Notes under the pieces: generated by a model
Databases searched by the model: none
What the model was told of the DNA's origin: nothing
The model's input: only the letters and a program-made list of their open reading frames with translations
Part shown: one piece after another, positions 8,836 through 60,768 of the stretch
Layout of the letters: the number at the start of each line of letters is the position of its first letter
Position numbering within the stretch: the first letter of the stretch is position 1
Assembly: GCA_947647735.1 (NCBI GenBank)
Contig: CANSLJ010000022.1
Coordinates: 1 to 64,000 of the forward strand
Direction: 5' to 3'
Origin: an uncultured bacterium
GTDB taxonomy: Bacteria; Bacillota; Clostridia; Lachnospirales; Lachnospiraceae
DNA: 64,000 bases
Made by a program: the position numbers and the translations under genes

Positions 8836-8995
8836 TTCTTTTTCCTCCAAACAATTTTATGTTTTAATATTTGTATTATTTCATTATATTACATATTTAT
8901 TCTAATATCAAAACATTTTTGTGTTTTATTACATTCAAAAATGAGCTGTTTTCACATTTCACAACAACACAGCCTTTTCGCATAATTATTTTCGC

Positions 8996-9234
8996 CTTAT
9001 AAGAAATGGTTTTCACACTTTAGCACGACAAGGTCTTTCCTAGATAAAAGAACAAAGTGGGCAAGCCCACCTCAACCCCCTTACCCCCAATCTTGGGGGA
9101 ATAAGCTTGCACACTTTGCCGCGCCGAGTGCAAGTCGCTTTAGCGACTAATACCTCTTGCACGAGTGCGCATCTTATTTTTGTCTTATAGGAAGACACTT
9201 TCACGCTTTAGCGTGACAAGGTCTTTCCTATAAG
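8996..9234. repeat. Array of four intergenic stem-loops
   Basis: The 450-base gap between the AAA15 gene and the ABC permease holds no gene but four successive inverted repeats: 8996-9050, 9053-9118 (CAAAGTG/CACTTTG with inner CCCCCAATCTTGGGGG), 9127-9162 (GTGCAAG/CTTGCAC with inner AGTCGC/GCGACT) and 9184-9234 (CTTATAGGAAGAC/GTCTTTCCTATAAG with inner TCACGC/GCGTGA). The first and last are copies of one another, and three share a CTTTAG loop. No open frame is supported here. Confidence 0.8.
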
Positions 9235-31555: not shown

Positions 31556-32953
31556 TTAGTGTGTCACAAAGAACATGATCGCAAACAACGCGCCGATCAC
31601 CCATGTACCGATCTTGATCTCCTTCGCCTTACCGGAAAACAGACTGATAAAGATATAGGAAATCACACCGAATGCGATGCCGTAAGAGATATTGTAAGCC
31701 ATCGGCATCATCGCCACAGTCAGAAACGCCGGAACAGCCGTATCCGCGTTTAACCAGTCGATATTTCTCACACAGTTCATCATCAGGACGCCCACATAGA
31801 TCAGCGCCGCCGCAGTTGCGCAGCCGGGTACCAGCGCCGCAATGGGACTGAAGAACATGGCGATAAAGAACAGCGCTCCCGTCACCATGGAAGAAAGGCC
31901 GGTTCTGCCGCCCTCCGCAACGCCCGCAGAAGATTCCACGAAAGTTGTGACAGTGGAAGTACCACACACTGCACCGCAGGTTGTCGCGATGGCGTCTGCC
32001 AGCATAGCCTTGTCCATATTGGGCACCTTACCCTCTTTTGTCAGAAGGTCGCCTCTTGCACAGGCACCGTATAATGTGCCCAGCGTATCAAACATATCCA
32101 CCAGACAGAAAGCCAGCGCGGTTGTGATGATCAGAACGATCAGTTCCGTCTGGGTATGCTCTGCAAGATAAGCGGAGAAATCAAACCCTTCCGTGAACAC
32201 CTTGCCAAGCGCCTGGGAACCAAAATCCCCGAAGGCAGCCAGCGGATTAAAGCTTAAGGACGCACCGAAGCCCTCATAGAAACCGGGAACTGTAAAGCCC
32301 AAAATATAATAAGCCACCGCGCCGCCTACGATACCCAGAAGCACAGAACCCTTTACCCCTCTCTGGGACATCACCGCGATCGCGATCACGGTGCCTATGG
32401 TCACAAGGACAGGCATCACGGACGCCCATGTCGCCGTACCGGAAAATACATTTAAGGAAACCAGATTCACGCAGGTTGCCGCATCATTCACAACGATACC
32501 CGCATTCTGCAGGCCGATAAACGCGATAAACAGACCAATACCGGCAGGGATCGCCACCCTTACCTGATTGGGGATCGCCTCAAAGATCTTCTCCCGGAGC
32601 CCTGTCACAGTTAAAATAATAAAGATAATACCGTCCACCAGCACCAATACCAGCGCATTGGCATAGGTCAGCCCGAAACCGAAACAGACGGTATAAACAA
32701 AAAATGCATTCAGCCCCATACCGGAAGCCTGTGCAAGCGGCAGATTGGCAAGCAGGCCGATCAGGATCGTACCGATCACAGCGGAGATCGCTGTCGCAAT
32801 ATAGATCGCATTGTAGGATACAGTACCCAGATCAGCAAACATGCCGGCATTTACCATCAGGATATATGCCATTGCCATAAATGTGGTCAGCCCCGCAAGC
32901 ACTTCGGTTCTGACCGTGGAACCCTTTTCTTTCACTTTGAAGAAATTCTCCAT
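31556..32953 (-). CDS. pbuG: NCS2 family purine (guanine/hypoxanthine) permease
   Basis: Proton-coupled purine uptake transporter of the AzgA/PbuG branch, 465 residues and about 13 membrane helices. Signatures are GLTTFMAMAYILMVNAGMF near the start, ASGMGLNAFFVY, MFDTLGTLYGACARGDLLT and SSAGVAEGGRTGLSS. Its leader holds a guanine-type purine riboswitch, which strongly supports guanine or hypoxanthine as substrate. Monocistronic, with its own promoter (33171-33199) and terminator. Confidence 0.92.
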   Translation of the reverse strand: MENFFKVKEKGSTVRTEVLAGLTTFMAMAYILMVNAGMFADLGTVSYNAIYIATAISAVIGTILIGLLANLPLAQASGMGLNAFFVYTVCFGFGLTYANALVLVLVDGIIFIILTVTGLREKIFEAIPNQVRVAIPAGIGLFIAFIGLQNAGIVVNDAATCVNLVSLNVFSGTATWASVMPVLVTIGTVIAIAVMSQRGVKGSVLLGIVGGAVAYYILGFTVPGFYEGFGASLSFNPLAAFGDFGSQALGKVFTEGFDFSAYLAEHTQTELIVLIITTALAFCLVDMFDTLGTLYGACARGDLLTKEGKVPNMDKAMLADAIATTCGAVCGTSTVTTFVESSAGVAEGGRTGLSSMVTGALFFIAMFFSPIAALVPGCATAAALIYVGVLMMNCVRNIDWLNADTAVPAFLTVAMMPMAYNISYGIAFGVISYIFISLFSGKAKEIKIGTWVIGALFAIMFFVTH

Positions 32954-33055
32954 ACTCTCTTCTTCTCCTCCTTTGGCTTTCGCCGTGTGCCGGAAAAAAG
33001 CTTAACGAAGGATATCGGGGAAAAGCAATACCTCTTTTGTACTTTATCTTTTCTT

Positions 33056-33120
33056 CCGATAGTCAGATATTTACGGTATCTGGTAGAAACTCCGGAACCC
33101 TATTATCCGGATTATATCGA
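33056..33120 (-). promoter_or_regulatory. Purine (guanine-class) riboswitch of the permease gene
   Basis: Aptamer read on the minus strand: P1 arms TCGATA/TATCGG, P2 CCGGA/TCCGG, core GTTTCTACC, P3 CAGATA/TATCTG with loop CCGTAAA, and the 3' core GACTAT, where the C marks guanine rather than adenine specificity. The 3' arm of P1 can also pair with a CCCCGATA farther on (about 33013-33020) followed by a T run at about 33000, which fits an OFF switch by termination; that part is inferred. Confidence 0.93.
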
Positions 33121-33170
33121 AAAGCTTATTCCTTATGTTTATGAAACCAGTCGTTTTGACTGCGTCTATC

Positions 33171-35701: not shown

Positions 35702-36265
35702 TTAGCCTTCCTTTGTCAGGGAACCCTTCTTTGCTCTTGTCTTGCTGTAGGCAAGCAGTAAAACAGTACCGATCACGCCTGCGGAAACAGCGTTGGAAGC
35801 TGCTGCCACCCAGCCCTGCTTGAACACCAGCTCTGTGGGCTCCGCATATACCACGATATCCAGCACCGGCGCAACAATAACCCATGCGATGATGTTGGAA
35901 ACGATCTGATAGATATTAAACCGCACGATATCCTTCACACCGAAGATACCCTCTTCCACTTTCAGTTTCGGGTATACAAGCCCTGTGCCAAAGCATGCCA
36001 GTCCGCTTGCCACAACCCAGCTCCACCATGCAGAACCGTACTGTACGGAATCAGACAGCGCATGACCGATAAATGCGATCAGCCCGCCTGCGATCGGTCC
36101 GAACAGCGCGCCAAAGAAAGCGCCGATACCGTAAGCAGTCTGGATATCCGTCTCGGGAATACCGGTGGGAACCTTCACATACATAAACAGCAGTGTAAAC
36201 AATGCCGCCCCAAGGCCCGTTGCCACGATGGTCTTTGTCTTAAACTCAAACATCTTCTTTTGCAT
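35702..36265 (-). CDS. ECF transporter S component (UPF0397 family)
   Basis: Membrane substrate-capture subunit of an energy-coupling-factor transporter, 187 residues, about five to six helices. Signatures are LFMYVKVPTGIPETDIQTAYG, FFGALFGPIAGGLIAFIGHAL and SWVVASGLACFGTG. The family is often labelled riboflavin-specific, but no FMN riboswitch or riboflavin gene is near, while a SAM hydroxide adenosyltransferase gene is next to it. The start at 36265 has GGAGGAG. EcfT and a double EcfA are encoded upstream. Confidence 0.85.
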   Translation of the reverse strand: MQKKMFEFKTKTIVATGLGAALFTLLFMYVKVPTGIPETDIQTAYGIGAFFGALFGPIAGGLIAFIGHALSDSVQYGSAWWSWVVASGLACFGTGLVYPKLKVEEGIFGVKDIVRFNIYQIVSNIIAWVIVAPVLDIVVYAEPTELVFKQGWVAAASNAVSAGVIGTVLLLAYSKTRAKKGSLTKEG

Positions 36266-41560: not shown

Positions 41561-42724
41561 TTACTTCACAACCCTGACACGGAACACGCCCTTCACACCG
41601 CGGAGTTTCTCCACGATATCATCATCCGGCCTTGTCTCCACATCCAACATCGTATAAGCCACCTCGCCGCGGGACTTATTCGTCATATCAGAAATATTGA
41701 TACCTGCTTCCCCTAAAATGGAAGTAAACTTTGTGATCATATTCGCAATATTCTTATGGAACACCGCAATACGCCCCGCCTTCGTGCAGATGCCCATATC
41801 ACAGTTCGGATAGTTCACGGAGTTGATGATATTGCCGTTTTCCAGATAATTCATCAGCTCTTTTACCGCCATTTTCGCACAGTTATCCTCGGACTCCTCG
41901 GTGGAAGCCCCGAGGTGCGGTATCACGATACAGCCTTCCTGTCCCGCTGTGATCGTATTCGGGAAATCCGTCACATACTTTCTGATCTTTCCGGAGCGGA
42001 TGCCCTTCAGAACAGCCTTCTCATCCATCAGCACATCCCTTGCGAAGTTCAGCAGGATAACGCCCCGCTTCATCTTCGCCACCGCTTCTTCGTTCACCAT
42101 TCCTCTTGTGGAATCCATCAAAGGCACATGGATCGTGATGATATCGCAATACTCATAAATATCATCCACATTCAATACATGATGCACATCCCTGCTCAGG
42201 CTCCATGCCGCATCCACGGAAACATAAGGATCATACCCGTAAACTTCCATGCCCATATGCTTTGCCACGTTGGCAACCCGCACGCCGATGGCGCCCAGGC
42301 CGATGATCCCCAGCTTCTTTCCTTCCAGCTCGGTTCCCGCAAATTTCTTTTTCTCTTTCTCCGCCGCCTTGGAGATATCCGCATTGTCCTTCTCAGACTT
42401 CACCCATTCGATACCGCCCACCACATCTCGGGAAGCCAGCAGCATCCCCGCGATCACCAGCTCTTTCACACCGTTTGCGTTTGCCCCCGGTGTATTGAAT
42501 ACAACGATACCCTTCTCTGCGCATTTATCCAAAGGTATATTATTTACACCAGCACCGGCTCTTGCCACCGCCAGAAGGTTTTCCGGCAGCTCCATCTCAT
42601 GCATGGAAGCACTTCTGACAAGAATGCCGTCCGCCTCGGACACTTCCGATGTCTTTGCATACTCTGGTGTAAACCGATCAAGTCCCACTTTTGCAATAGG
42701 ATTTAAACAATGATATTTGTACAT
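41561..42724 (-). CDS. serA: D-3-phosphoglycerate dehydrogenase
   Basis: First step of serine synthesis: oxidises 3-phosphoglycerate with NAD+. The Rossmann loop is LGIIGLGAIGVRVANVAKHMG, the catalytic histidine lies in VIPHLGASTEESEDNC, and an ACT domain starts after residue 310 (RIAVFHKNIANMITKF). The 387-residue length is the short type with a single ACT domain. The start at 42724 follows GAGGAGG from the structured element; an earlier ATG overlaps that site. It lies 125 bases after serC in the same direction. Confidence 0.95.
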   Translation of the reverse strand: MYKYHCLNPIAKVGLDRFTPEYAKTSEVSEADGILVRSASMHEMELPENLLAVARAGAGVNNIPLDKCAEKGIVVFNTPGANANGVKELVIAGMLLASRDVVGGIEWVKSEKDNADISKAAEKEKKKFAGTELEGKKLGIIGLGAIGVRVANVAKHMGMEVYGYDPYVSVDAAWSLSRDVHHVLNVDDIYEYCDIITIHVPLMDSTRGMVNEEAVAKMKRGVILLNFARDVLMDEKAVLKGIRSGKIRKYVTDFPNTITAGQEGCIVIPHLGASTEESEDNCAKMAVKELMNYLENGNIINSVNYPNCDMGICTKAGRIAVFHKNIANMITKFTSILGEAGINISDMTNKSRGEVAYTMLDVETRPDDDIVEKLRGVKGVFRVRVVK

Positions 42725-42756
42725 GTTATTTATACTCCTCCTCATATTTCAGTTCC

Positions 42757-42846
42757 GCATCTGTCCTTCCAGTACACCTATACCTAGGACAAATTTTCAG
42801 CTGCTTCGCATCTGCAAATTGTCCTGTGCACTTTCAGGACAGATGC
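42757..42846 (-). ncRNA. Intercistronic structured RNA element (serC-serA)
   Basis: Minus-strand fold: P1 GCATCTGTCC/GGACAGATGC, P2 AGTGCAC/GTGTACT, P3 AGGACA/TGTCCT with a bulge and ATTT/AAAT, P4 CAG/CTG and P5 TGC-GAA-GCA, then 3' flank GGAACTG and GAGGAGG of serA. Compared with the copies at 57543 and 58346, P1 and P3 differ by several compensatory changes. The element begins three bases after the serC stop codon. Confidence 0.8.
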
Positions 42847-42849
42847 TGT

Positions 42850-43932
42850 CTATTTATGCTCTTCCTCAAATTTCTTCATAAACGCAACGAGTGCCTCCAC
42901 ACCCTCCTTAGGCATCGCGTTATAGATGGAAGCACGCATGCCGCCCACAGTTCTGTGGCCTTTCAGGTTTTCAAATCCGGCTTTCTTCGCCTCCGCCACA
43001 AACAGGGCATCCAACTCCGCATCTCCTGTCACAAAAGGCACATTCATCAGAGAACGGTCTTCCTTCCTGACAGTCCCCTTAAACAGCGCACTGCTGTCAA
43101 GGAAATCATAGAGCACCTTTGCTTTCTCTTCATTGCGGCGCTTCATCTCAGAAAGGCCGCCCATTGCCTTCAGCCATTTAAACACTTTACCGCAGATATA
43201 AATACCATAGCAGGGCGGCGTATTGTAAAGGGAATCATTGTCCGCATGGGTTTTAAACTTCATCATGGTAGGCGTTCCCGGCAAAACTTCATCGGAAAGC
43301 AGATCCTCCCGGATGATCACGATCTGCACGCCTGCAGGCCCCACGTTCTTCTGCACGCCTGCGTAAAGCACGCCGTACTTCGTCACATCCACAGGCTCGG
43401 AAAGGAAACAGGAAGAAACATCCGCCACAAGGATCTTGCCCTTTGTATCCGGCAGCGTGTGATACTTGGTTCCATAGATCGTATTGTTCTCACAGATATA
43501 AACATAATCCAGATCCTCCGGAATATCCAGATCGGAGCAGTCCGGTATGTAGGAGAATGTCTGATCCGCGGAAGATGCCAGCTCTACCGCTTCCCCGTAG
43601 ATCTTTGCTTCCTGATAGGCCTTTTTCGCCCACTGCCCGGTCAGGATATAACCAGCCTTTTTGTTTTTCATCAGGTTCATCGGTATGGACGCAAAAATAA
43701 GGCTCGCACCGCCCTGCAGAAACAATACTTTATAGTTATCGGGTATGCCCATCAGATCCCGCAGATCCGCTTCTGCCTTCTTGATGATCTTATCAAACAC
43801 CTTAGAGCGGTGGCTCATCTCCATCACGGACATGCCGCATCCTTCGTAATCCAGCATCTCAGCAGCAGCCTCTTTCAATACTTCCTCCGGAAGCACCGCC
43901 GGGCCGGCCGAAAAATTATATACTCTTGCCAT
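42850..43932 (-). CDS. serC: Phosphoserine aminotransferase
   Basis: PLP aminotransferase, second step of serine synthesis. It starts MARVYNFSAGPAVLPEEVL, and the PLP lysine lies in VLYAGVQKNVGPAGV; ends EEEHK. The 360-residue length is normal. A ribosome binding site AGGAGG sits in a conserved GGAACTGGAATAGGAGG stretch (43940-43956) shared with the RNA elements. Promoter at 43982-44010. serA follows. Confidence 0.95.
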   Translation of the reverse strand: MARVYNFSAGPAVLPEEVLKEAAAEMLDYEGCGMSVMEMSHRSKVFDKIIKKAEADLRDLMGIPDNYKVLFLQGGASLIFASIPMNLMKNKKAGYILTGQWAKKAYQEAKIYGEAVELASSADQTFSYIPDCSDLDIPEDLDYVYICENNTIYGTKYHTLPDTKGKILVADVSSCFLSEPVDVTKYGVLYAGVQKNVGPAGVQIVIIREDLLSDEVLPGTPTMMKFKTHADNDSLYNTPPCYGIYICGKVFKWLKAMGGLSEMKRRNEEKAKVLYDFLDSSALFKGTVRKEDRSLMNVPFVTGDAELDALFVAEAKKAGFENLKGHRTVGGMRASIYNAMPKEGVEALVAFMKKFEEEHK

Positions 43933-44847: not shown

Positions 44848-45715
44848 TCATAATGCCAGCTCCGCATTTCCCTGCATGTTGTCCGCTGTCGTAGATGAAA
44901 AAGAAACTATACTGTATCCGTCAAAACAGCTGTACGGATTCCTGACCAGTTCCGCCGTGACCTTATGTTTCTGCGTATCCTCCGTGCCATCATACCCGAC
45001 TTCCAGATCCGCCGTGATCAGCCCCCCGCTGTCCGTTTCCTCGTAATCGTATCCGGTAATCGAACCATAGATGAGCAAACTTGCGGCATCATACCTGTCT
45101 ATGGAACCGCTGACAGCAGTCGAAAAATCCAATTCTGTACCGGTAAGGGAATACTGGATATAATTCAGTTCGTCGATACTGATCTGTCCATTGTTCTGCT
45201 CAGAGATCTGATCCAGATAATCAAATGACAGCCTAGAATTCTGCGATAAAAAATTCTTTAAAGCCACCAGTCCCGGGAGTACCACTGTCAAAATCCGTAT
45301 AACTGAGCGCCAACTGTGCGATCGCAGTTTTTAGATCATCCCCCATGACAAATTCCGCCGGGTATTCATATTCTTTGATGCCAAGCGCTTCGTAATCTAT
45401 GAACTCTGATTCCTCATGCGCACTGCCTTTCTCCTTCTGCGATGCAGTTTTGTCAGTGTCTTTCTCGTCTGAGACATTTTCACCGATGTCTTCCTTCTCA
45501 TCTGAAGTAGTTTCGCCAATGCCCTCCTTCTCATCTGAGGCAGTTTCAACGAGGCCTTCCCTCCCATTTGAGGCAGTTCTGCCGGCATCCTGACTGATTT
45601 CAGCGGTATCATCCACGGTGCCTGTCTGCATATCTTCTGTGTTTTCCGCTTGACCGCATAAGAAAAGCAAAAAAATCATTGCTCCTGCCGCCAGCATAAC
45701 TGATATTTTTTTCAC
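44848..45715 (-). pseudogene. Frameshifted lipoprotein gene, paralogue of the next gene
   Basis: A GTG start (45715) gives a signal peptide MKKISVMLAAGAMIFLLFLCGQAEN almost identical to that of the lipoprotein at 47167, an acidic D/E/K/T repeat region (SDEKEGIGETTSDEKEDIGE), and then ALGIKEYEYPAEFVMGDD. Near 45280 the frame changes by one base, and the other frame continues with VLPGLVALKNFLSQNSRLSF and 130 more residues to 44848. The lipobox is FLLFLC rather than FMLSSC, which is poor. Likely an inactivated secreted lipoprotein; a sequencing error is possible. Confidence 0.75.
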
Positions 45716-45769
45716 GATCCGTCACTCCTGTGGTACACTTGCAATAGTTTCACACGTTATTCATATCGA

Positions 45770-47167
45770 TCAAAATGCAAAAGGAAATTGGAATTCTTCT
45801 CCTGCCGGAAACGAAATCTCTCTCGATGATTCCGTAACTGTGAAGCTTGCGCCATCCCATCCGTTGATTTTGATGATTCCTTTTACGCTTCCATCATCCG
45901 CTGTAAACGCCAGTTCTCCGTTTCCGCTGTCGACAAAGGTTCCTTCTACCTGTCCCATTCTATGAATGCCGATAATCGCTTCATCATCTCCTGAATATCC
46001 CGGCCGGGTGATCAGATCGCTGTATATGCTGCCGGTTCCATAATTTTCTACAAACAGCCCATACTTTGCTGACCGTTCCGGCATGACAAAGGATTCGCCT
46101 GTTATCTTTGCCAGTTCATTTGCAATCACATAAGCCCTGTTTTTTGTAATCTCCTCCAGATAAGAATTCACAAGAAGAGGGTACATGCTTCCGTTTTCTT
46201 CACTGTAACCAATGCTCGTTAATACCGCTCCTTCCTTCATGTCTATCCAGTTCCTCTGTTCCGCAAGGACCTTCTCCTTTGTCTGCTGATCGGCGGAATT
46301 ACTGAATCTATTCCAAAGACTGTTTAATTCCGTATCCCATATTACGAGAAACCATTCGGACGATATATTCATCTCTCCCTGTGTCTGGGCCGCCTCGGCT
46401 AACGGAGTGTACTTTTGAATAATATTCTCCATATTCTTCAGTTCTTCCTGCAGGGAAGCAGAAGCTGATACCACATGGTCAACATCCGCCCTGATGTCCT
46501 CAGAATAGTCACGGAAAAAATCTATTTCAAGATCATCATCCAATTCAATGCCATTGTTTTCTCTGCCTGCAGGATCGGATTCTCCTCCGGCGTCCCCAGA
46601 CTCTGACCGGTTTGCTCCGCCCTGCTCCGTATCCTGACCGCTCTGCTTCACCGCACGATACAAAAGCTGTGCTTCTTCAAATGCTGTTTTTCCATAATAC
46701 ACCTCTATGCCGTCCGTATCATACTCCAAAATATAGTAACTGAATTGAACCGTGTCATCAGAAGATACCTGCTCCGGATACTTTATATAGATCCTATTAT
46801 CTTTTATAATTTCTACGTTGGATGAATCCGCCAGAAAACGATAGGAAGATTCCGATTCATAATCAGAAATATCATAACCGTCAGATGTTTTTTGAATCGT
46901 CAGCTTACCGGTTCCATTATCTGAGGTATACTCGTATTCACCCGCCAATCTCTCCAATTCCCCATAAACAATGTCCTTATCCTCCTGTAGGGCAGTTTCA
47001 TCAGCACCTTTCTTCCCATCTGAGTCCGCTTCGCCGGCATCCTGACTGATTTCTGCGCTACCATCCGCGGTGCCTGTCTGCATATCCTCCGTGTTCTCCG
47101 CCTGGCCGCATGAGGAAAGCATAAAAATCATCGCTCCTGCCGCCAGCATAACTGATATCTTTTTCAT
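45770..47167 (-). CDS. Lipoprotein with LprI/DUF1311-like domain
   Basis: A 465-residue lipoprotein: signal peptide with lipobox MLSSCG (cysteine about 20), an acidic low-complexity region, a beta segment (YEYTSDNGTGKLTIQ), then about residues 240-345 a helical DUF1311/LprI-like part with LNSLWNRFSNSADQQTKEKVLAEQRNWID, and a C-terminal beta part. Some DUF1311 proteins inhibit lysozyme. AGGAGTGACGG precedes the ATG and this leader is also copied in the adjacent frameshifted gene. Confidence 0.75.
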   Translation of the reverse strand: MKKISVMLAAGAMIFMLSSCGQAENTEDMQTGTADGSAEISQDAGEADSDGKKGADETALQEDKDIVYGELERLAGEYEYTSDNGTGKLTIQKTSDGYDISDYESESSYRFLADSSNVEIIKDNRIYIKYPEQVSSDDTVQFSYYILEYDTDGIEVYYGKTAFEEAQLLYRAVKQSGQDTEQGGANRSESGDAGGESDPAGRENNGIELDDDLEIDFFRDYSEDIRADVDHVVSASASLQEELKNMENIIQKYTPLAEAAQTQGEMNISSEWFLVIWDTELNSLWNRFSNSADQQTKEKVLAEQRNWIDMKEGAVLTSIGYSEENGSMYPLLVNSYLEEITKNRAYVIANELAKITGESFVMPERSAKYGLFVENYGTGSIYSDLITRPGYSGDDEAIIGIHRMGQVEGTFVDSGNGELAFTADDGSVKGIIKINGWDGASFTVTESSREISFPAGEEFQFPFAF

Positions 47168-47177
47168 AATCCGTCAC
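47103..47177. repeat. Duplicated 5' end of the two lipoprotein genes
   Basis: The ribosome binding site region and signal peptide codons here match 45655-45728 almost base for base (including AGGAGTGACGGAT and the MKKISVMLAAGAMIF codons), whereas the mature proteins are unrelated beyond the acidic stretch. Confidence 0.7.
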
Positions 47178-47328
47178 TCCTCCTGACAACACATTTTTTA
47201 TCAGTCTTTTTCCGCACTGCTCATTGCCATCGTGCATATTTTACCACAACAAAACAATAAATAAAATGCCGCCTGCGCAAACGACATCTTTTTTGCACAA
47301 ACGACATATAACAGCGGATATCAAACAT

Positions 47329-52549: not shown

Positions 52550-52683
52550 CGCAGAGGGAAAATAATATCTTCGTCGCCACGCTCTCGCTCCGTAAAAAGC
52601 GTAACGGACACTAAGCTCGAAAATACCTCGCTAAGTGCCGACGCTTTTTAAGGGGCTCCTTAAGATATTATTTTCCCTCTGCG
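52550..52683. repeat. Large palindromic intergenic element
   Basis: A 134-bp stretch with perfect 22-base inverted ends (52550-52571 and 52662-52683, starting CGCAGAGGG) and an inner stem TAAAAAGCGT/ACGCTTTTTA (52593-52602, 52641-52650). It fills the gap between the grpB-like gene and the ilvD promoter. No protein is encoded. Looks like a MITE or a REP-type repeat; other copies are not in this window. Confidence 0.8.
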
Positions 52684-56110: not shown

Positions 56111-57082
56111 TTATTTCAGTTCTTTATACAGCTTCTCCTTCATCTTCTCATCCGCGAAGGAAACCGCAATGGCGTTTCTCATACACAGCAGGATCTCTTC
56201 ATCCTGTATCCCGTAATTCCTTTGAATAAATTCCAGTTCCTTCGTCAGAGAAGTGCTGCTCACGGCACGATTGTCCGTATTGATCGTGACGATAAGCCCT
56301 CTGTCCAGAAATTCCCGCAGGGGATATTCCTCCGGGCTATTCACTGCCTTTGTCTGCAGGTTGCTGATGGGACACATTTCAACGCCCACACCGGCTTTTT
56401 TCACAAGTTCCTGAATATCCGCCCTGCCTCGCATGGCGATACCGTGCCCGATGCGTCCTGCCCCTGCTTTTACCGCATTCACAATGTTCTCCGCATTCCC
56501 ACACTCCCCGGCATGTATCGTATAGGACATGCCCAGCTTTTTCACTCTCTCGAACAGGTTCATAAACTCCGACATCGGATACTGCGCCTCCGCTCCCGCC
56601 AGATCCGCCGCGCAGACGCCCGCTCCCGAGAACTGCCACGCGGTTTTCAGCATCCTGAAATTTTCTTCCTCACTGTAATGGCGCATGGCACAGACGATCA
56701 CATTGTATTCCACGCCAAAATCCTGTCTTCCCTTTTCCAGGCCCTTCAGCAGCGCTTCGATCGACTGCTCCGTACTCATCTCCTCCGACACCAGAGACAG
56801 CGGTGTAAAACGGATCTCCGCATAGCGGACATTCTCGCTGCCCATCGTCCTTAGAATATCATAGCCCGCACCCGCAAGCCCCTCCGCATCCTGCAGACAG
56901 GCTACAGGCAGTGCAAACTTTGCCAGATATTCCGAAAGGTTCTGACAATCCTCGGACACCTGCAATTCCTTCTCCTCCACAGTCCTTCCCAGCCGCTTCT
57001 CAACAAATCCGCGGCTCAGAGAACCGTCCAGATGACAGTGTAATTCTACTTTTGGCAGTTTTTTTAATTCTTCTGTTGTCAT
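56111..57082 (-). CDS. add: Adenosine deaminase
   Basis: Converts adenosine and deoxyadenosine to inosine forms. Zinc and catalytic residues appear in KVELHCHLDGS, TIHAGECGNAENI, GRIGHGIAM and TINTDNRAVSST. 323 residues. It follows cdd by 18 bases and supplies inosine for phosphorolysis. Confidence 0.95.
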   Translation of the reverse strand: MTTEELKKLPKVELHCHLDGSLSRGFVEKRLGRTVEEKELQVSEDCQNLSEYLAKFALPVACLQDAEGLAGAGYDILRTMGSENVRYAEIRFTPLSLVSEEMSTEQSIEALLKGLEKGRQDFGVEYNVIVCAMRHYSEEENFRMLKTAWQFSGAGVCAADLAGAEAQYPMSEFMNLFERVKKLGMSYTIHAGECGNAENIVNAVKAGAGRIGHGIAMRGRADIQELVKKAGVGVEMCPISNLQTKAVNSPEEYPLREFLDRGLIVTINTDNRAVSSTSLTKELEFIQRNYGIQDEEILLCMRNAIAVSFADEKMKEKLYKELK

Positions 57083-57100
57083 GGTCGCCTCATTTATACT

Positions 57101-57520
57101 CTATGCCAGATCTGCCGGTCCGAATCCCTCCGGAAACGCCTCCTTCAGAGTATATATTTTATATTCATCTTTACTCTTCGCCACAATGATCTGAAATGTA
57201 TCCGGATCACAGAACTCCATCATCACCTGCCGGCACACGCCGCAGGGATATGCGTACCCTGTCAGGAACCCATCCTTTCCCCCGACAACACAGATAGCGT
57301 CAAACTCCTTCACGCCCTCGCTCACCGCTTTGAAAAAAGCAGTCCGCTCCGCACAGTTTGTCGGTGTAAAAGCGGCATTCTCTATATTACAGCCTGTATA
57401 CAGCTTTCCGTTCTTCGCCAGAAGCGCCGCGCCTACTCTGAAATGGGAATACGGCACATAGGAAAAGTCCATCTGCCGAATCGCCAGATCGATCATTTCT
57501 TCTATTCGTTTTTTATCCAT
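57101..57520 (-). CDS. cdd: Cytidine deaminase
   Basis: Zinc enzyme that turns cytidine into uridine. The active site is CNIENAAFTPTNCAERTAFF with the proton-shuttling Glu in CAERTA, and PCGVCRQVMMEF holds the other cysteines. 139 residues is typical, and the C-terminal tail is family-like. An RNA element (57543-57630) sits in its leader after deoC. Confidence 0.96.
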   Translation of the reverse strand: MDKKRIEEMIDLAIRQMDFSYVPYSHFRVGAALLAKNGKLYTGCNIENAAFTPTNCAERTAFFKAVSEGVKEFDAICVVGGKDGFLTGYAYPCGVCRQVMMEFCDPDTFQIIVAKSKDEYKIYTLKEAFPEGFGPADLA

Positions 57521-57542
57521 ACTATACCTCTATTCCAGTACC

Positions 57543-57630
57543 GCATGAGCCTTTCCAGTGCCATCTTCGGCAGAGAAATTTCCGGCCGCTTCTCGTCCGT
57601 ATATTCTCTAGGCACTGTTCAGGCTCATGC
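57543..57630 (-). ncRNA. Intercistronic structured RNA element (deoC-cdd)
   Basis: Same nested fold as at 58346: P1 GCATGAGCCT/AGGCTCATGC, P2 CAGTGCC/GGCACTG (perfect here), P3 AGAGAA/TTCTCT, P4 CGG/CCG, P5 CG/CG, conserved GGAA after P2, and 3' flank GGTACTGGAATAGAGG carrying the cdd binding site. P1 and P4 differ from the other copies by compensatory changes. Confidence 0.8.
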
Positions 57631-57656
57631 TGTTTTCCAGTTCCGCATTATGTCGT

Positions 57657-58322
57657 TTAATATCCGGTTGCCTCCTCGCTCTTGAGCAGCTTGATGATCC
57701 TGCTTGTGCCGAGGCGGTCTGCTCCCAGGGCAAGGAATTTCTCCGCATCCTCCAGAGAGGAAATACCGCCCGCCGCCTTGATCTTCACATTCTCACCGAC
57801 ATGCTCCGCAAAGAGCTTCACATCATCAAAGGTTGCCCCTGCCGTTGAAAAGCCGGTGGAAGTCTTGATATAATCCGCTCCCGCCTTTGTCACGATCTCA
57901 CACATCTTTATCTTCTCTTCGTCCGTCAGCAGGCAGGTCTCGATAATGACTTTCAGTATCTTATCGCCGCAGGCCGCTTTCAGTGTCCGGATCTCCTCCT
58001 CCAGCAGATCGTACTTCTTATCCTTCAGCCAGCCGATATTGATCACCATATCGATTTCCGCCGCTCCGTTTGCGATTGCATCTTTTGTCTCGAACTCTTT
58101 CACAGCCGTTGTCATATACCCGTTCGGAAATCCGATCACGGTGCAGACAGCTACCTTCCCCTGTAAATAATCTGCCGCCTGTCTCACATAAGAAGGCGGA
58201 ATACACACGGAAGCTGTTCCGTATTTTACCGCATCATCACAGATCTGTCTGATTTCCTCCCATGTGGAAGGTTGCAGCAGCAGTGTGTGGTCAACATGTT
58301 TTACCATTTCTTTTACGTCCAT
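57657..58322 (-). CDS. deoC: Deoxyribose-phosphate aldolase
   Basis: Cleaves deoxyribose 5-phosphate to glyceraldehyde 3-phosphate and acetaldehyde. It reads [18 protein letters not shown], the Schiff-base lysine is in [10 protein letters not shown], and a second lysine in [15 protein letters not shown]. The 221-residue form from 58322 uses AGGAG of the RNA element; a longer reading would translate the element and is rejected. Second gene of the operon. Confidence 0.95.
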
Positions 58323-58345
58323 AATCATTCTCCTATTCCAGTTCC

Positions 58346-58433
58346 GCATGAGCTCTTCCAGCACCTTATTCTGCAGAGAAATTTCCAGCCGTTTCACGTC
58401 TGTAAATTCTCTGGGCACTGTCTGAGCTCATGC
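58346..58433 (-). ncRNA. Intercistronic structured RNA element, copy next to deoC
   Basis: Nested fold on the minus strand: P1 GCATGAGCTC/GAGCTCATGC, P2 CAGTGCC/GGTGCTG, P3 AGAGAA/TTCTCT plus TTT/AAA, P4 CAG/CTG, P5 CGT-GAA-ACG, then 3' flank GGAACTGGAATAGGAG with the deoC binding site. It is the deoC-proximal copy of a tandem pair. Confidence 0.8.
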
Positions 58434-58447
58434 TGTTTTCCAGTTCC

Positions 58448-58535
58448 GCATGAGCTCTTCCAGCACCTTATCCTGCAGAGAAATTTCCAGCCGTTTCACG
58501 TCTGTAAATTCTCTGGGCACTGTCTGAGCTCATGC
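58448..58535 (-). ncRNA. Intercistronic structured RNA element, tandem copy after udp
   Basis: Identical to 58346-58433 except for a single base in the P2-P3 loop; the period of the tandem pair is 102 bases. Its 3' flank reads GGAACTGGAAAACAG, so no gene start follows directly: a local duplication within the udp-deoC gap. Confidence 0.8.
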
Positions 58536-58560
58536 TGTTTTCCAGTTCCGCATCAATTTT

Positions 58561-59334
58561 TTATTTATCCTGCCTGATCAGTTCCCGGATTGCTTCCACA
58601 GCCACCTGGATTGCCATATCCGTATCATGCACCACCGGATTTTCAAGCCCCAGCTTCTCCCGCTCCTGATTGGCAACTACAAGGAAACAGGAACCCGTCC
58701 TCACCCGCAGATAGCTTGCCACGATAAACAGCGCCGCCGATTCCATCTCGGATGCCAGACACCCCAGCCTCTTCCATGCCTCCCACTTGTTCATCAGCTC
58801 ATAGCTGACCGGCTTTGTCTCCGGCTCATGCTGTCCGTAGAACGCATCCTTGCACTGCACAACGCCCGTGTGGAAGGGATAGCCTTTCTTCTTTGCCGCC
58901 TCCACCAGCGCGTTTGTCACGGTAAGGTCCGGCACTGCCGGAAACTCAATGGGCGCGTATTCCTTTGTGGTTCCTTCCATACGGATAGCGCCCGTGGCAA
59001 CCACCACATCCCCGCTCTTTACTTCCGTCTGCATTCCCCCGCAGGTTCCGATGCGGATAAACGTATCAGCCCCGCAGCGGTAAAGCTCCTCCATCGCAAT
59101 GGATGCCGAGGGACCCCCGATCCCGGTGGATGTCACGCTGACTTTCACCCCGTCCAGCGTCCCGGTGTAGGTGACATACTCCCTGTTATCCGCAACCAGC
59201 ACCGGATCCTCAAAGTACTGCGCAATCTTGGCGCAGCGCTTCGGATCTCCCGGCATGATCACATACCTGCCGACCTCGCCCTTCGCCACCTGAATATGAT
59301 ACTGCCTGCTTGCATCTTCTGAATAATTCTTCAT
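58561..59334 (-). CDS. udp: Nucleoside phosphorylase (uridine phosphorylase type)
   Basis: Phosphorolyses nucleosides to base and (deoxy)ribose 1-phosphate. Motifs are [35 protein letters not shown] and [14 protein letters not shown]. 257 residues, uridine-type by the length and [12 protein letters not shown] start. The start at 59334 follows GGGGAG. First gene of the operon, 32 bases after the promoter. Confidence 0.9.
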
Positions 59335-59364
59335 CTGCACTCCCCTGCCTTTCTCCATGATTCC

Positions 59365-59393
59365 ATTTTATAATTCCAACTATATTTTTGCAA
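59365..59393 (-). promoter_or_regulatory. Promoter of the udp-deoC-cdd-add-deoB operon
   Basis: TTGCAA (59388-59393), 17-base spacer, TAAAAT (59365-59370) on the minus strand. It overlaps the end of the crp-like gene. Confidence 0.75.
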
Positions 59394-59398
59394 TAAAT

Positions 59399-60127
59399 TT
59401 ATGACAGATCGATCTTTTTTTCCACAATTTTTCTAAGTTCCATATATTGTTCCTTACTTACAGTGATCTTCTGTCCTTTTTTAGAAATCAGCCCATCCTC
59501 ATAAAACTTCTTTATGCTTCTGCTGATACTCCGCAGACACAGCCCTGTCTCATCCGCCAGACTCTGCCTGCCCGCAGAAATCTCCAGAAATCCATTCTTA
59601 TGATACTTTTTATAGGAATCGACCAAAAATAAAGCCAGTCTGTCCGCTCCCTGCATAAACAAAAACAGTCTGTTGTTTCTCCCCTCTGTCAGAAGATATT
59701 CACAGATCTGCTTTGCCTCATATTTCATAGCATGGATATCCGAATACATCCACTTCTGAAACACCGCCCTGGAAAGCTTTACCACCACGCAGTCCGTCAC
59801 CGTCCAGAGATTTGTCCTGTAAACATCCTCATCCGTCATAAACTCCATGCCGCCAAAAGCATACAGTTTATCAAACCGCATATAGTTAAAAGGAACGCCG
59901 TACACCCGGTAATCCGCCGCCTCCACAACGCCCTTTATCACATAATATACGGTATCGGCAGGCTCTCCCTCCTTTACCAGCAGCGTATCCTTCTTTATCT
60001 TTTCGATCCGGAACTCCTCGATCAGCCACCTGGGCGCATCCTTAAAATACTCTGCAAACTGCTCCCGTTTTCTATCCTCCGTCTCCCTCAGAAACGGCGC
60101 CAGATCATTTGCTGTTTCCTGCTTCAT
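59399..60127 (-). CDS. Crp/Fnr family transcriptional regulator
   Basis: A 242-residue regulator with an N-terminal cyclic-nucleotide-binding-like beta barrel (about 40-125, LLVKEGEPADTVYYVIKG) and C-terminal helix-turn-helix (about 175-205, SLADETGLCLRSISRSIKKF). No cysteine set for an Fe-S cluster is visible. It overlaps the yczE-like gene by four bases. Ligand unknown. Confidence 0.9.
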   Translation of the reverse strand: MKQETANDLAPFLRETEDRKREQFAEYFKDAPRWLIEEFRIEKIKKDTLLVKEGEPADTVYYVIKGVVEAADYRVYGVPFNYMRFDKLYAFGGMEFMTDEDVYRTNLWTVTDCVVVKLSRAVFQKWMYSDIHAMKYEAKQICEYLLTEGRNNRLFLFMQGADRLALFLVDSYKKYHKNGFLEISAGRQSLADETGLCLRSISRSIKKFYEDGLISKKGQKITVSKEQYMELRKIVEKKIDLS

Positions 60128-60768
60128 ACGGAAACCTCCCTCTCTGTTTTACAGACAGCTCCTCTTTTCATACATTTTGAGATGCGCTCTGAAAAGAACT
60201 GGATCACCGGGCCTGCCGCAAACGCTGTGATCACAGTGATCATACCAAGCCCGCCTCCTAAGATAACACCTGTTATAATACAGACCACATCAAAACAGAT
60301 CTTGACTGTCCGGTATTCTTTCCCAGCCTTATCCCTGATCAGCATCACGATCCCTGTAAACGGATCAAGCCCGATGTCCGCCGCGATAAACATCGCAACT
60401 CCCACATACAATGACATACATCCTAAAAACGCCCCCATGATCTGCACAGGCATTGTCTGCACCGGAAACAGCATATGGTACAGCCTCCCGCCCAGATCCA
60501 CGATCGTTCCATAGGGAAGGATATAGATAAAAGTGCCGATATTGACATAGCGCCTGCCCAGACAAAAGACAACCGCTGTCAATGCAAAATTGACAATATT
60601 GGATGCCATTCCCAACTGCTGAGACGAAAGTCCCAGAGCATTTCTGAGCCCGTCGTACAAAATCCCGATGGAATCATTCCCCAAAGACGCCGCCGCATTA
60701 AAAGCGATCCCAACTCCCACAAACAAAATTCCGACCACAGCCAGTACCATCTTTTTTCCTTTTTCCAT
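60124..60768 (-). CDS. YczE/YitT-like integral membrane protein
   Basis: About 214 residues and five membrane helices, with the internal pattern AAASLGNDSIGILYDGL, TFIYILPYGTIVDLGG and ADIGLDPFTGIVM of the YczE/YyaS group. The start is uncertain: ATG 60768 gives the family length, while longer readings from 60807 or 60834 would lie before the likely transcription start. A pair with the Crp/Fnr gene (four-base overlap). Confidence 0.75.
   Translation of the reverse strand: MEKGKKMVLAVVGILFVGVGIAFNAAASLGNDSIGILYDGLRNALGLSSQQLGMASNIVNFALTAVVFCLGRRYVNIGTFIYILPYGTIVDLGGRLYHMLFPVQTMPVQIMGAFLGCMSLYVGVAMFIAADIGLDPFTGIVMLIRDKAGKEYRTVKICFDVVCIITGVILGGGLGMITVITAFAAGPVIQFFSERISKCMKRGAVCKTEREVSV

Follow-up and report, generated by a model that had tools for sequence, protein, structure and literature searches.

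Copies of the element in the window and their common fold

In the window, that is the whole stretch of 64,000 nt that was analysed, the minus strand contains a gene for a udp-like phosphorylase (58561..59358, PF01048) followed by deoC (57660..58328, PF01791) and cdd (57104..57520, PF00383) and, at another place, a serC-like gene (42850..43932, PF00266) followed by a serA-like gene (41564..42724, PF02826). The gaps between these genes hold a hairpin-forming element, of which four full copies and one short copy were found in the window, all on the minus strand. They were scored with the models R1 and R2, the latter trained on copies of six other genomes only. Two full copies lie in tandem in the udp-deoC gap; the distal member (58438..58537; R1 104.9 bits, R2 101.6 bits) is 99 % identical to its neighbour (58336..58435; R1 105.5 bits, R2 102.3 bits), which abuts the Shine-Dalgarno sequence of deoC and has a predicted folding energy of -41.9 kcal/mol (z -6.1). 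Another full copy is located in the deoC-cdd gap (57533..57632; R1 96.5 bits, R2 90.0 bits), and the fourth in the serC-serA gap (42747..42848; R1 100 bits, R2 101.6 bits). The latter forms a dispersed pair with a 94 % identical copy at G000:C2:129696-129797, G000 being the genome of the window. The short form, which is without P3 and P4 (36282..36346; R1 46.5 bits, E 6e-10; R2 47.4 bits), lies upstream of a gene for the S component of an ECF riboflavin transporter (35705-36265, Pfam PF07155). Model R2 thus recovered the four full copies with scores of 90-102 bits (E at most 4.2e-20) and scored the short form at 47 bits, and since it was built from other genomes the copies in the window are not due to chance; a chance repeat was ruled out by these matches together with the z-scores of folding.

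The first-pass annotation had described three copies, in the serC-serA, deoC-cdd and udp-deoC gaps, and these were found on the minus strand where it had placed them. Its coordinates ran from P1 to P1', to which the full element adds a 5' CAG and a 3' tail of the GGAACTGGAA type, and its list was incomplete, since a fourth full copy in tandem and the short form are also present. The statement that the element fills the gap from stop codon to ribosome-binding site holds, with the amendment that two gaps also contain the truncated 3' end of a further copy, located beside the udp stop codon in the udp-deoC gap (58540..58553, minus strand, ATGCGGAACTGGAA) and at 57635..57648 (minus strand) in the deoC-cdd gap, both recognised from the sequence.

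For the family as a whole, 172 copies were aligned, 51 from G000 and 121 from six relatives, the latter taken from stretches around the best-scoring copies among the matches listed. They form 139 arrays (109 single, 27 double and 3 triple) in seven genomes of one genus. The aligned sequences point to one common fold, consisting of P1 (10 bp), a 3x3 internal loop GNA/GNA, P2, an 8-nt bulge on the 3' side, P3, an A·G mismatch, 3 bp, another A·G mismatch and an apical stem. The shared nested hairpin proposed earlier was reproduced by RNA folding of five copies, with z-scores of -6.1 to -8.1. The unpaired ends of the element, AAA-CAG and CGGAACUGGAAU, are conserved; the CGGAACUGGAAU tail is mostly unpaired, has at least 1.5 bits at 9 of its 12 positions and abuts the Shine-Dalgarno sequence, its second GGA being altered in about one quarter of the arrays (G at position -4 in 108/139 and at -3 in 102/139).

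Features outside the helices are kept as well. The loop between P1 and P2 is mostly GNA/GNA in the 172 copies, the mismatch in P4 is A·G in 133/172 and swapped to G·A in 12/172, the 3' bulge has 8 nt in 137/172 and 9 nt in 23/172, and the 5' loop ends in A in 141/172 copies, whereas the letters of the apical loop are not conserved. At the 28 best-paired positions 120 G·U pairs were counted on the sense strand, compared with 25 A·C, and a single pair position is G·U in 131/172 copies; these counts and those of the loops come from model-fitted alignments and therefore lean toward structure. The conserved loop, the A·G/G·A swap, the bulge and the G·U pairs of the sense strand, together with the covariation described below, argue for a folded RNA, and the element very probably represents a selected family of RNAs of the sense strand.

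Covariation and position relative to genes

The paired changes in P1, P3 and P4 that had been reported between copies are present in the sequence as described. In alignment A4, which comprises 121 copies (119 distinct) from the six other genomes, 30 of 32 pairs change on both sides, with 700 compensated cells compared with 191 in shuffles; none of 500 shuffles reached any of five measures, and the score, 0.544 in register, fell to at most 0.113 when the alignment was slid by 1-3 columns. The alignment of 29 copies from G000 has 24 of 32 pairs changing on both sides, one lesser measure being reached by 1/500 shuffles, and among 28 copies (26 distinct) of 16 further loci, 11 of them from other genera, 26 of 32 pairs do so. 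Covariation thus lay far above both the shuffled and the slid controls in three alignments, and an absence of significantly covarying pairs, which had been named as the outcome speaking against a structured RNA, was not seen.

At orthologous junctions, 162 pairs had changed on both sides and kept pairing, 52 had changed on one side and kept pairing and 46 were broken (32 comparisons of 45 arrays, which are not independent, with two poorly paired P2 positions excluded). Compensation therefore looks as if it took place after the copies were in place, judged from sequence comparison, with replacement of a copy possible at some sites. In 4/172 copies (L200, L201, L296 and L298) the P1/P2 loop is fully complementary, which seems to be a trace of template switching that perfects the palindrome. 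At one junction the copy of G000 (L200:9943-10039) is a near-perfect palindrome and that of G004 (L317:4949-5054) has normal loops and bulge; this pair would be an example of the effect. Part of the fast turnover of P1 may consequently not reflect selection, but template switching would destroy the loops which the other copies keep. The earlier claim that covariation reflects selection on RNA structure is supported in this amended form, the amendments concerning template switching and the mobility discussed below.

A start codon in sense orientation was found within 30 nt of the element in 126 of the 139 arrays, with a Shine-Dalgarno-like motif in 122 of these. In 12 of the remaining 13 the first qualifying sense ORF starts at 31-350 nt, and one array ends its contig; some of the more distant starts are due to the 60-codon limit of the script, as in L184, where a shorter gene with a Pfam match is present. 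With a stricter test, requiring a sense start 5-30 nt past the element, such starts were seen for 119/135 arrays in the sense and 0/135 in the antisense direction, and for 412/5000 random places. An earlier script placed the start 11-17 nt past the element in 88/131 arrays, 22 starts having fallen inside the end of the element, mostly at an ATG of P1. A co-directional stop codon lies within 200 nt upstream of 129/139 arrays; the corresponding controls were 402 of the 617 genes that have a co-directional neighbour no more than 250 nt away and 2322/5000 random places (200-nt limit). Two of the ten arrays without such a stop are at contig ends, and in L317 and L321, which also belong to the ten, a TATAAT-like box was seen by eye just upstream. 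The view that the copies lie in the sense strand between genes of operons was thereby borne out for most arrays.

According to a crude gene caller, 16/139 arrays are followed by a gene on the opposite strand. In 10 of these, no more than 20 nt from the element, there is the start of a sense ORF of at least 100 codons which has a Shine-Dalgarno-like motif; three of these ORFs have a Pfam match (L169, L182 and L193), and L184 has a Pfam-supported sense gene of 57 amino acids; with these supported sense ORFs at the element, 11 of the 16 calls are regarded as artefacts. For the other five (L190:4914, L260, L262, L296 and L297) the script gives no decision. None of the 139 arrays was found to point the opposite way, and the random orientation unrelated to gene starts that had been set as a refuting outcome was thus not observed. 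As an internal control, another interspersed repeat lying between co-directional genes in the same genomes was found 6 times in sense and 7 times in antisense orientation; as it is partly palindromic, its orientation is less sure.

Of the 18 arrays in the further loci, 17 are followed by a start codon, including those of atpE and an AIR synthase gene, and the remaining one is at the end of its contig. A copy also precedes the AIR synthase gene in G000, and deoC is preceded by one in L129, L134 and L150 as in the window. In L209:1972-2285 (minus strand) three tandem copies lie directly before the gene of ATP synthase subunit c.

Distribution and history of the copies

The genome of the window is a draft of 4.1 Mb and 86.6 % completeness. 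A single copy used as blastn query gave 47 matches in it (E up to 10), and a covariance model made from 29 of its own copies gave 59 with an E of at most 0.001. Within the genus, seven of nine genomes were matched by covariance model, with 12 to 94 matches each (12 in G001, 67 in G005 and 12 in G008), and no copy was found in G003 and G007 with this search. At the level of the family the element was patchy, being detected in 8/397 sampled genomes and 7/334 genera, and in 391 genomes sampled from the class only the genome of the window and one false positive were found, the latter (G558, from another family) being the 3' end of tmRNA plus its hairpin. Weak copies can escape the family and class searches, in which the filters were stricter and few candidates per genome were scored. 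The hosts with dozens of copies are apparently gut bacteria.

Around udp, 80 loci were inspected, and copies, whether full, diverged or short, were present in the udp-deoC or deoC-cdd gap of L086, L129, L134 and L150, which are titled Lachnospiraceae, and of L143, titled uncultured bacterium; in L129 (Lachnospiraceae IMSAGC_002) and L134 (strain 526-35), whose titles suggest isolates, the short form occurs at udp-deoC. In many of the remaining udp loci the genes nearly abut. No plasmid or phage record carrying the element was found by blastn with one copy as query. None of 4227 Rfam families matched the element at gathering threshold in the window or in L204-L207 and L209, or at E up to 1 in L001, L003, L011, L021, L250 and L253, which agrees with the earlier statement that no named RNA class is known to have this consensus. 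Full-text literature searches, judged by titles and the beginnings of abstracts, gave no published description of the element.

The serC-serA junction gives some insight into the origin of the copies. It is empty in G001, G004 and G008. In G002, two tandem copies are flanked by perfect 27-bp duplications of the end of serC, a segment including the serC stop as well as the ribosome-binding site of serA. A single copy with a decayed duplication is present in G000, where 18 bp of the serC end with its stop codon (42851..42868, minus strand) are identical at 16/18 positions to a downstream counterpart (42727..42744, minus strand) which bears the Shine-Dalgarno sequence of serA; in G005 and G006 remnants were recognised by eye. 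Elsewhere, an 11-bp perfect duplication was found at L195 and a weak one of 10 bp at L315. The duplications begin 1-2 nt past the element. Together with the empty sites they indicate that some copies once moved, and as far as sequence comparison tells the family is one that was once mobile, with insertion accompanied by target-site duplication shown at a few sites.

Beyond these few sites no duplication was detectable in the 42 usable arrays, and a general target-site duplication, as expected from serC-serA, was not found. The likeness of left and right flanks gave p 0.002-0.009 over 42 arrays, 97/139 having been dropped by a motif filter against older upstream tails, and p 0.21-0.58 for the remaining 40 when the two serA sites were left out; a first version with another filter and scoring, also with 42 usable arrays, gave p ~0.11. 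Dispersed copies within a genome have a median identity of 0.68-0.71 in five genomes, with 4 pairs in all reaching at least 0.9, so most copies appear to be old. In contrast, 24/35 tandem pairs are at least 90 % identical, which suggests local expansion and contraction, and the copies seem to duplicate and collapse locally and to move rarely. The nearest relative outside the array is in another genome for 108/168 full copies, several of them at the same junction. Sites have been gained and lost between species, and thus no single copy looks essential.

An alternative explanation, which is considered rather unlikely, is that of a DNA element of the MITE or REP type without host function, in which the hairpin would be the DNA substrate of a transposase, the location at the Shine-Dalgarno sequence would result from sequence-specific insertion and the purging of other insertions, and the compensated changes would stem from palindrome-perfecting template switches. 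The three duplications of 27, 18 and 11 bp at serC-serA of G002 and G000 and at L195 fit this explanation, as do the empty sites in relatives, the one 94 % identical dispersed pair, the perfected P1/P2 loops, the patchy occurrence in genera and the conserved unpaired ends. Against it, near-identical dispersed copies, as expected of an element that has spread recently, were limited to the 4 pairs mentioned, and at the median identity given above the fold is not kept by recent spread. Once the two serA sites are left out, the similarity of the flanks has no significance; the conserved loops, the bulge and the G·U pairs would be lost under template switching; and the control repeat was found in both orientations, with the reservation on its palindromic character. 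Nor was there a consistent link to a Y1 transposase: PF01797, expected for one of REP/RAYT type, had one partial match in G000 and none in G001 and G005, and G005 has no RVT_1 match either.

A SINE-like retroelement, with the RNA copied to new sites by a reverse transcriptase acting in trans, would account for the sense orientation, for target-site duplications of variable length (27, 18 with 2 mismatches, 11 and weakly 10 bp, starting 1-2 nt past the element) and for the fixed 3' tail, and RVT_1 matches occur in 6 of the 9 genus genomes. This origin is nevertheless very unlikely, as no RVT_1 match was found in G005 and G008, which have 67 and 12 matches to the element, recent dispersed copies are almost absent, and several upstream partial copies were seen by eye to keep the 5' end and miss the middle, so that they look like internal deletions and not like 5' truncations.

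Possible function and relation to known repeats

Taken together, the element is best explained, with a probability of roughly 0.45, as a family of hairpin RNAs of about 101 nt which originated as mobile sequences and are selected as cis-acting modules of mRNA between cistrons, being co-transcribed with Lachnospiraceae operons just 5' of the start signal of a gene and probably serving in processing or insulation. That it acts in cis as a module of the mRNA is probable in itself: a transcribed hairpin before the ribosome-binding site, usually behind a stop codon, with a preserved shape but with losses at some sites, suggests a module acting on the decay or translation of neighbouring cistrons. 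That its main action is processing of the RNase III type is a tentative proposal based on the anatomy of the hairpin. The chief rival explanations are a regulator that would bind the unpaired CGGAACUGGAAU and a DNA element that is purely selfish.

In such a model selection would act on the RNA fold within the polycistronic mRNA, where the hairpin would part two cistrons. It could be the recognition and cleavage site of a factor specific for double strands, with RNase III as the leading candidate and the 8-nt bulge as the putative place of the cut, and/or it could act as a barrier, the upstream cistron closing with the hairpin and the downstream cistron opening with a structured 5' block beside its own ribosome-binding site. 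Decay and translation of the two cistrons would thereby be uncoupled. RNase III would be the first choice because of the long hairpin, its asymmetric bulge and the cleavage of Correia repeats by this enzyme. An RNase III gene was found in 13/13 genomes tested, including G003 and G007, the two genus genomes without a detected copy, and its presence therefore discriminates nothing. The arrays of L317 and L321 speak against a separation of cistrons, as without an upstream stop there is no upstream cistron to separate.

Comparison with the element deleted in silico gave a predicted Shine-Dalgarno accessibility of 0.593 vs 0.580 (p 0.17, 128 arrays), and with the element shuffled the value was 0.548 (p 3e-4, 128 arrays); these folding predictions hint faintly at an insulation of the Shine-Dalgarno sequence by the element. 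An intrinsic terminator was set aside, since no U-run follows the stem, TTTT occurring in the 18 nt behind P1 in 1/139 arrays, and since neither of the two terminator-like sites in 56900-60200 is on the element.

For G000, 46 downstream proteins were located and 45 scanned, of which 39 had a Pfam match. The genes include those of a pfkB-type kinase, SecDF, NusA, a tRNA synthetase, a PTS permease, an Rnf subunit, a semialdehyde dehydrogenase and AIR synthase as well as serA, deoC and cdd, and no common pathway or function, and thus no coherent set of controlled genes, was recognised among the 45 of 46 proteins scanned. This counts against a translational operator, in which an RNA-binding regulator (CsrA-like, a ribosomal protein or another) would bind hairpin and tail and set the initiation of many genes together. 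The highly conserved, mostly unpaired tail abutting the Shine-Dalgarno sequence would suit such a regulator, the GGA repeats of CGGAACUGGAAU resemble CsrA sites, and csrA is present in 13/13 genomes tested. However, csrA is also present in G003 and G007, and with the second GGA altered in about a quarter of the arrays the operator appears quite unlikely. A metabolite riboswitch or attenuator, which leader position and conserved fold could suggest, is extremely improbable given the lack of an Rfam match, the many unrelated pathways of the downstream genes, the rarity of TTTT behind P1 and the variable apical loop. The presence of Y1 transposase, reverse transcriptase, CsrA or RNase III genes does not track the element.

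A more far-reaching form of the preferred cis-acting module, unlikely in all its parts together, would be a once-mobile sequence turned into genome-wide operon punctuation. It would have landed between stop codon and ribosome-binding site, with the latter duplicated when needed so that both genes survive, and would have been kept as a processed hairpin giving the downstream cistron its own mRNA 5' end, the outer stem drifting to a private sequence while the non-helical contacts stayed fixed. If the preferred explanation is right, dozens of junctions per genome (46 arrays were found in the part of the window's own genome examined) would share one structured RNA module with the same orientation and the same position, and operon members in these bacteria would be subject to a genome-wide layer of post-transcriptional tuning. 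The same junction with and without the element in sister species offers a natural experiment on the effect of an intercistronic hairpin on decay and translation. Unlike the usual bacterial repeats, this interspersed repeat is held in shape by compensation and not by recent copying.

Several known systems resemble the element. REPs are about 35 nt long and usually tied to Y1 transposases of the RAYT type, whereas the element is about three times longer, with fixed loops and no consistent link to Y1. The early RNase III sites R0.3-R1.3 of phage T7 are hairpins in sense orientation between cistrons, directly ahead of the ribosome-binding site of the next gene; they contain an asymmetric internal loop, are about 60 nt long and number five in a phage. 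Place and asymmetric loop are similar in the element; cleavage is known for the T7 sites and is only a candidate action here. The palindromic REP/BIME sequences of E. coli are partly intercistronic and can down-regulate translation when located within 15 nt of a stop codon (PMC12306157).

ERIC, NEMIS (Correia) and BOX sequences are described as short interspersed hairpin repeats, co-transcribed with genes and with copy numbers from tens to hundreds; RNase III cleaves Correia RNA, an RNase E site can become exposed in ERIC RNA, and BOX is modular (PMC3049150, PMC10969869). The element is likewise short, interspersed, hairpin-folding and located within operons. The effects reported for ERIC and boxB depend on orientation (PMC3049150, PMC10969869), and both orientations thus occur there, whereas no antisense array of the element was found and it abuts the Shine-Dalgarno sequence; its dispersed copies are, in addition, only about 70 % alike, with compensated stems, which distinguishes it from ERIC, Correia and BOX as these are described. 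The repeats bcr1-bcr18 of Bacillus cereus are also interspersed, about half of them being expressed in UTRs or within operons, and bcr10 and bcr18 have conserved structure and were proposed to be RNA elements (PMC3446304). They belong to an unrelated host group, and the rule of sense orientation beside the Shine-Dalgarno sequence is that of the element, none being apparent in the account of the bcr repeats (PMC3446304). The TAACTGA repeats of Beggiatoaceae occur in many copies, mostly forward and directly upstream of start codons, and were proposed to be post-transcriptional binding sites; they are tandem repeats of a heptamer overlapping the place of the Shine-Dalgarno sequence, which in its canonical form is rare there (PMC4679880). 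A hairpin fold of the present kind is not apparent in their description (PMC4679880) and is particular to the element. In its mode of working the element would resemble structured repeats between cistrons such as ERIC, Correia, BOX and bcr, and nothing that was tested makes it a member of one of them; it is set apart by the sense orientation, the contact with the Shine-Dalgarno sequence and the covariation of old copies.

Some other repeats and RNA features were observed. The interspersed repeat that served as control constitutes a second family of ~100-190 bp with inverted-repeat character, found at 21 places in the loci examined and in both orientations, among them window 52557-52676, L312:6294-6538, L317, L173 and L281, and sometimes beside the hairpin element. 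In the window, a 213-bp direct repeat (83 % identical) is found at 45517-45729 and 46969-47181, at the starts of two minus-strand ORFs, and a direct repeat of 57 nt (81 % identity), accompanied by a small inverted repeat (CACGCTTTAGCGTG), at 8986-9042 and 9174-9230. A purine riboswitch (Rfam RF00167, 82 bits) is present at 33040-33139 on the minus strand, upstream of an ORF of 465 amino acids (31556-32953).
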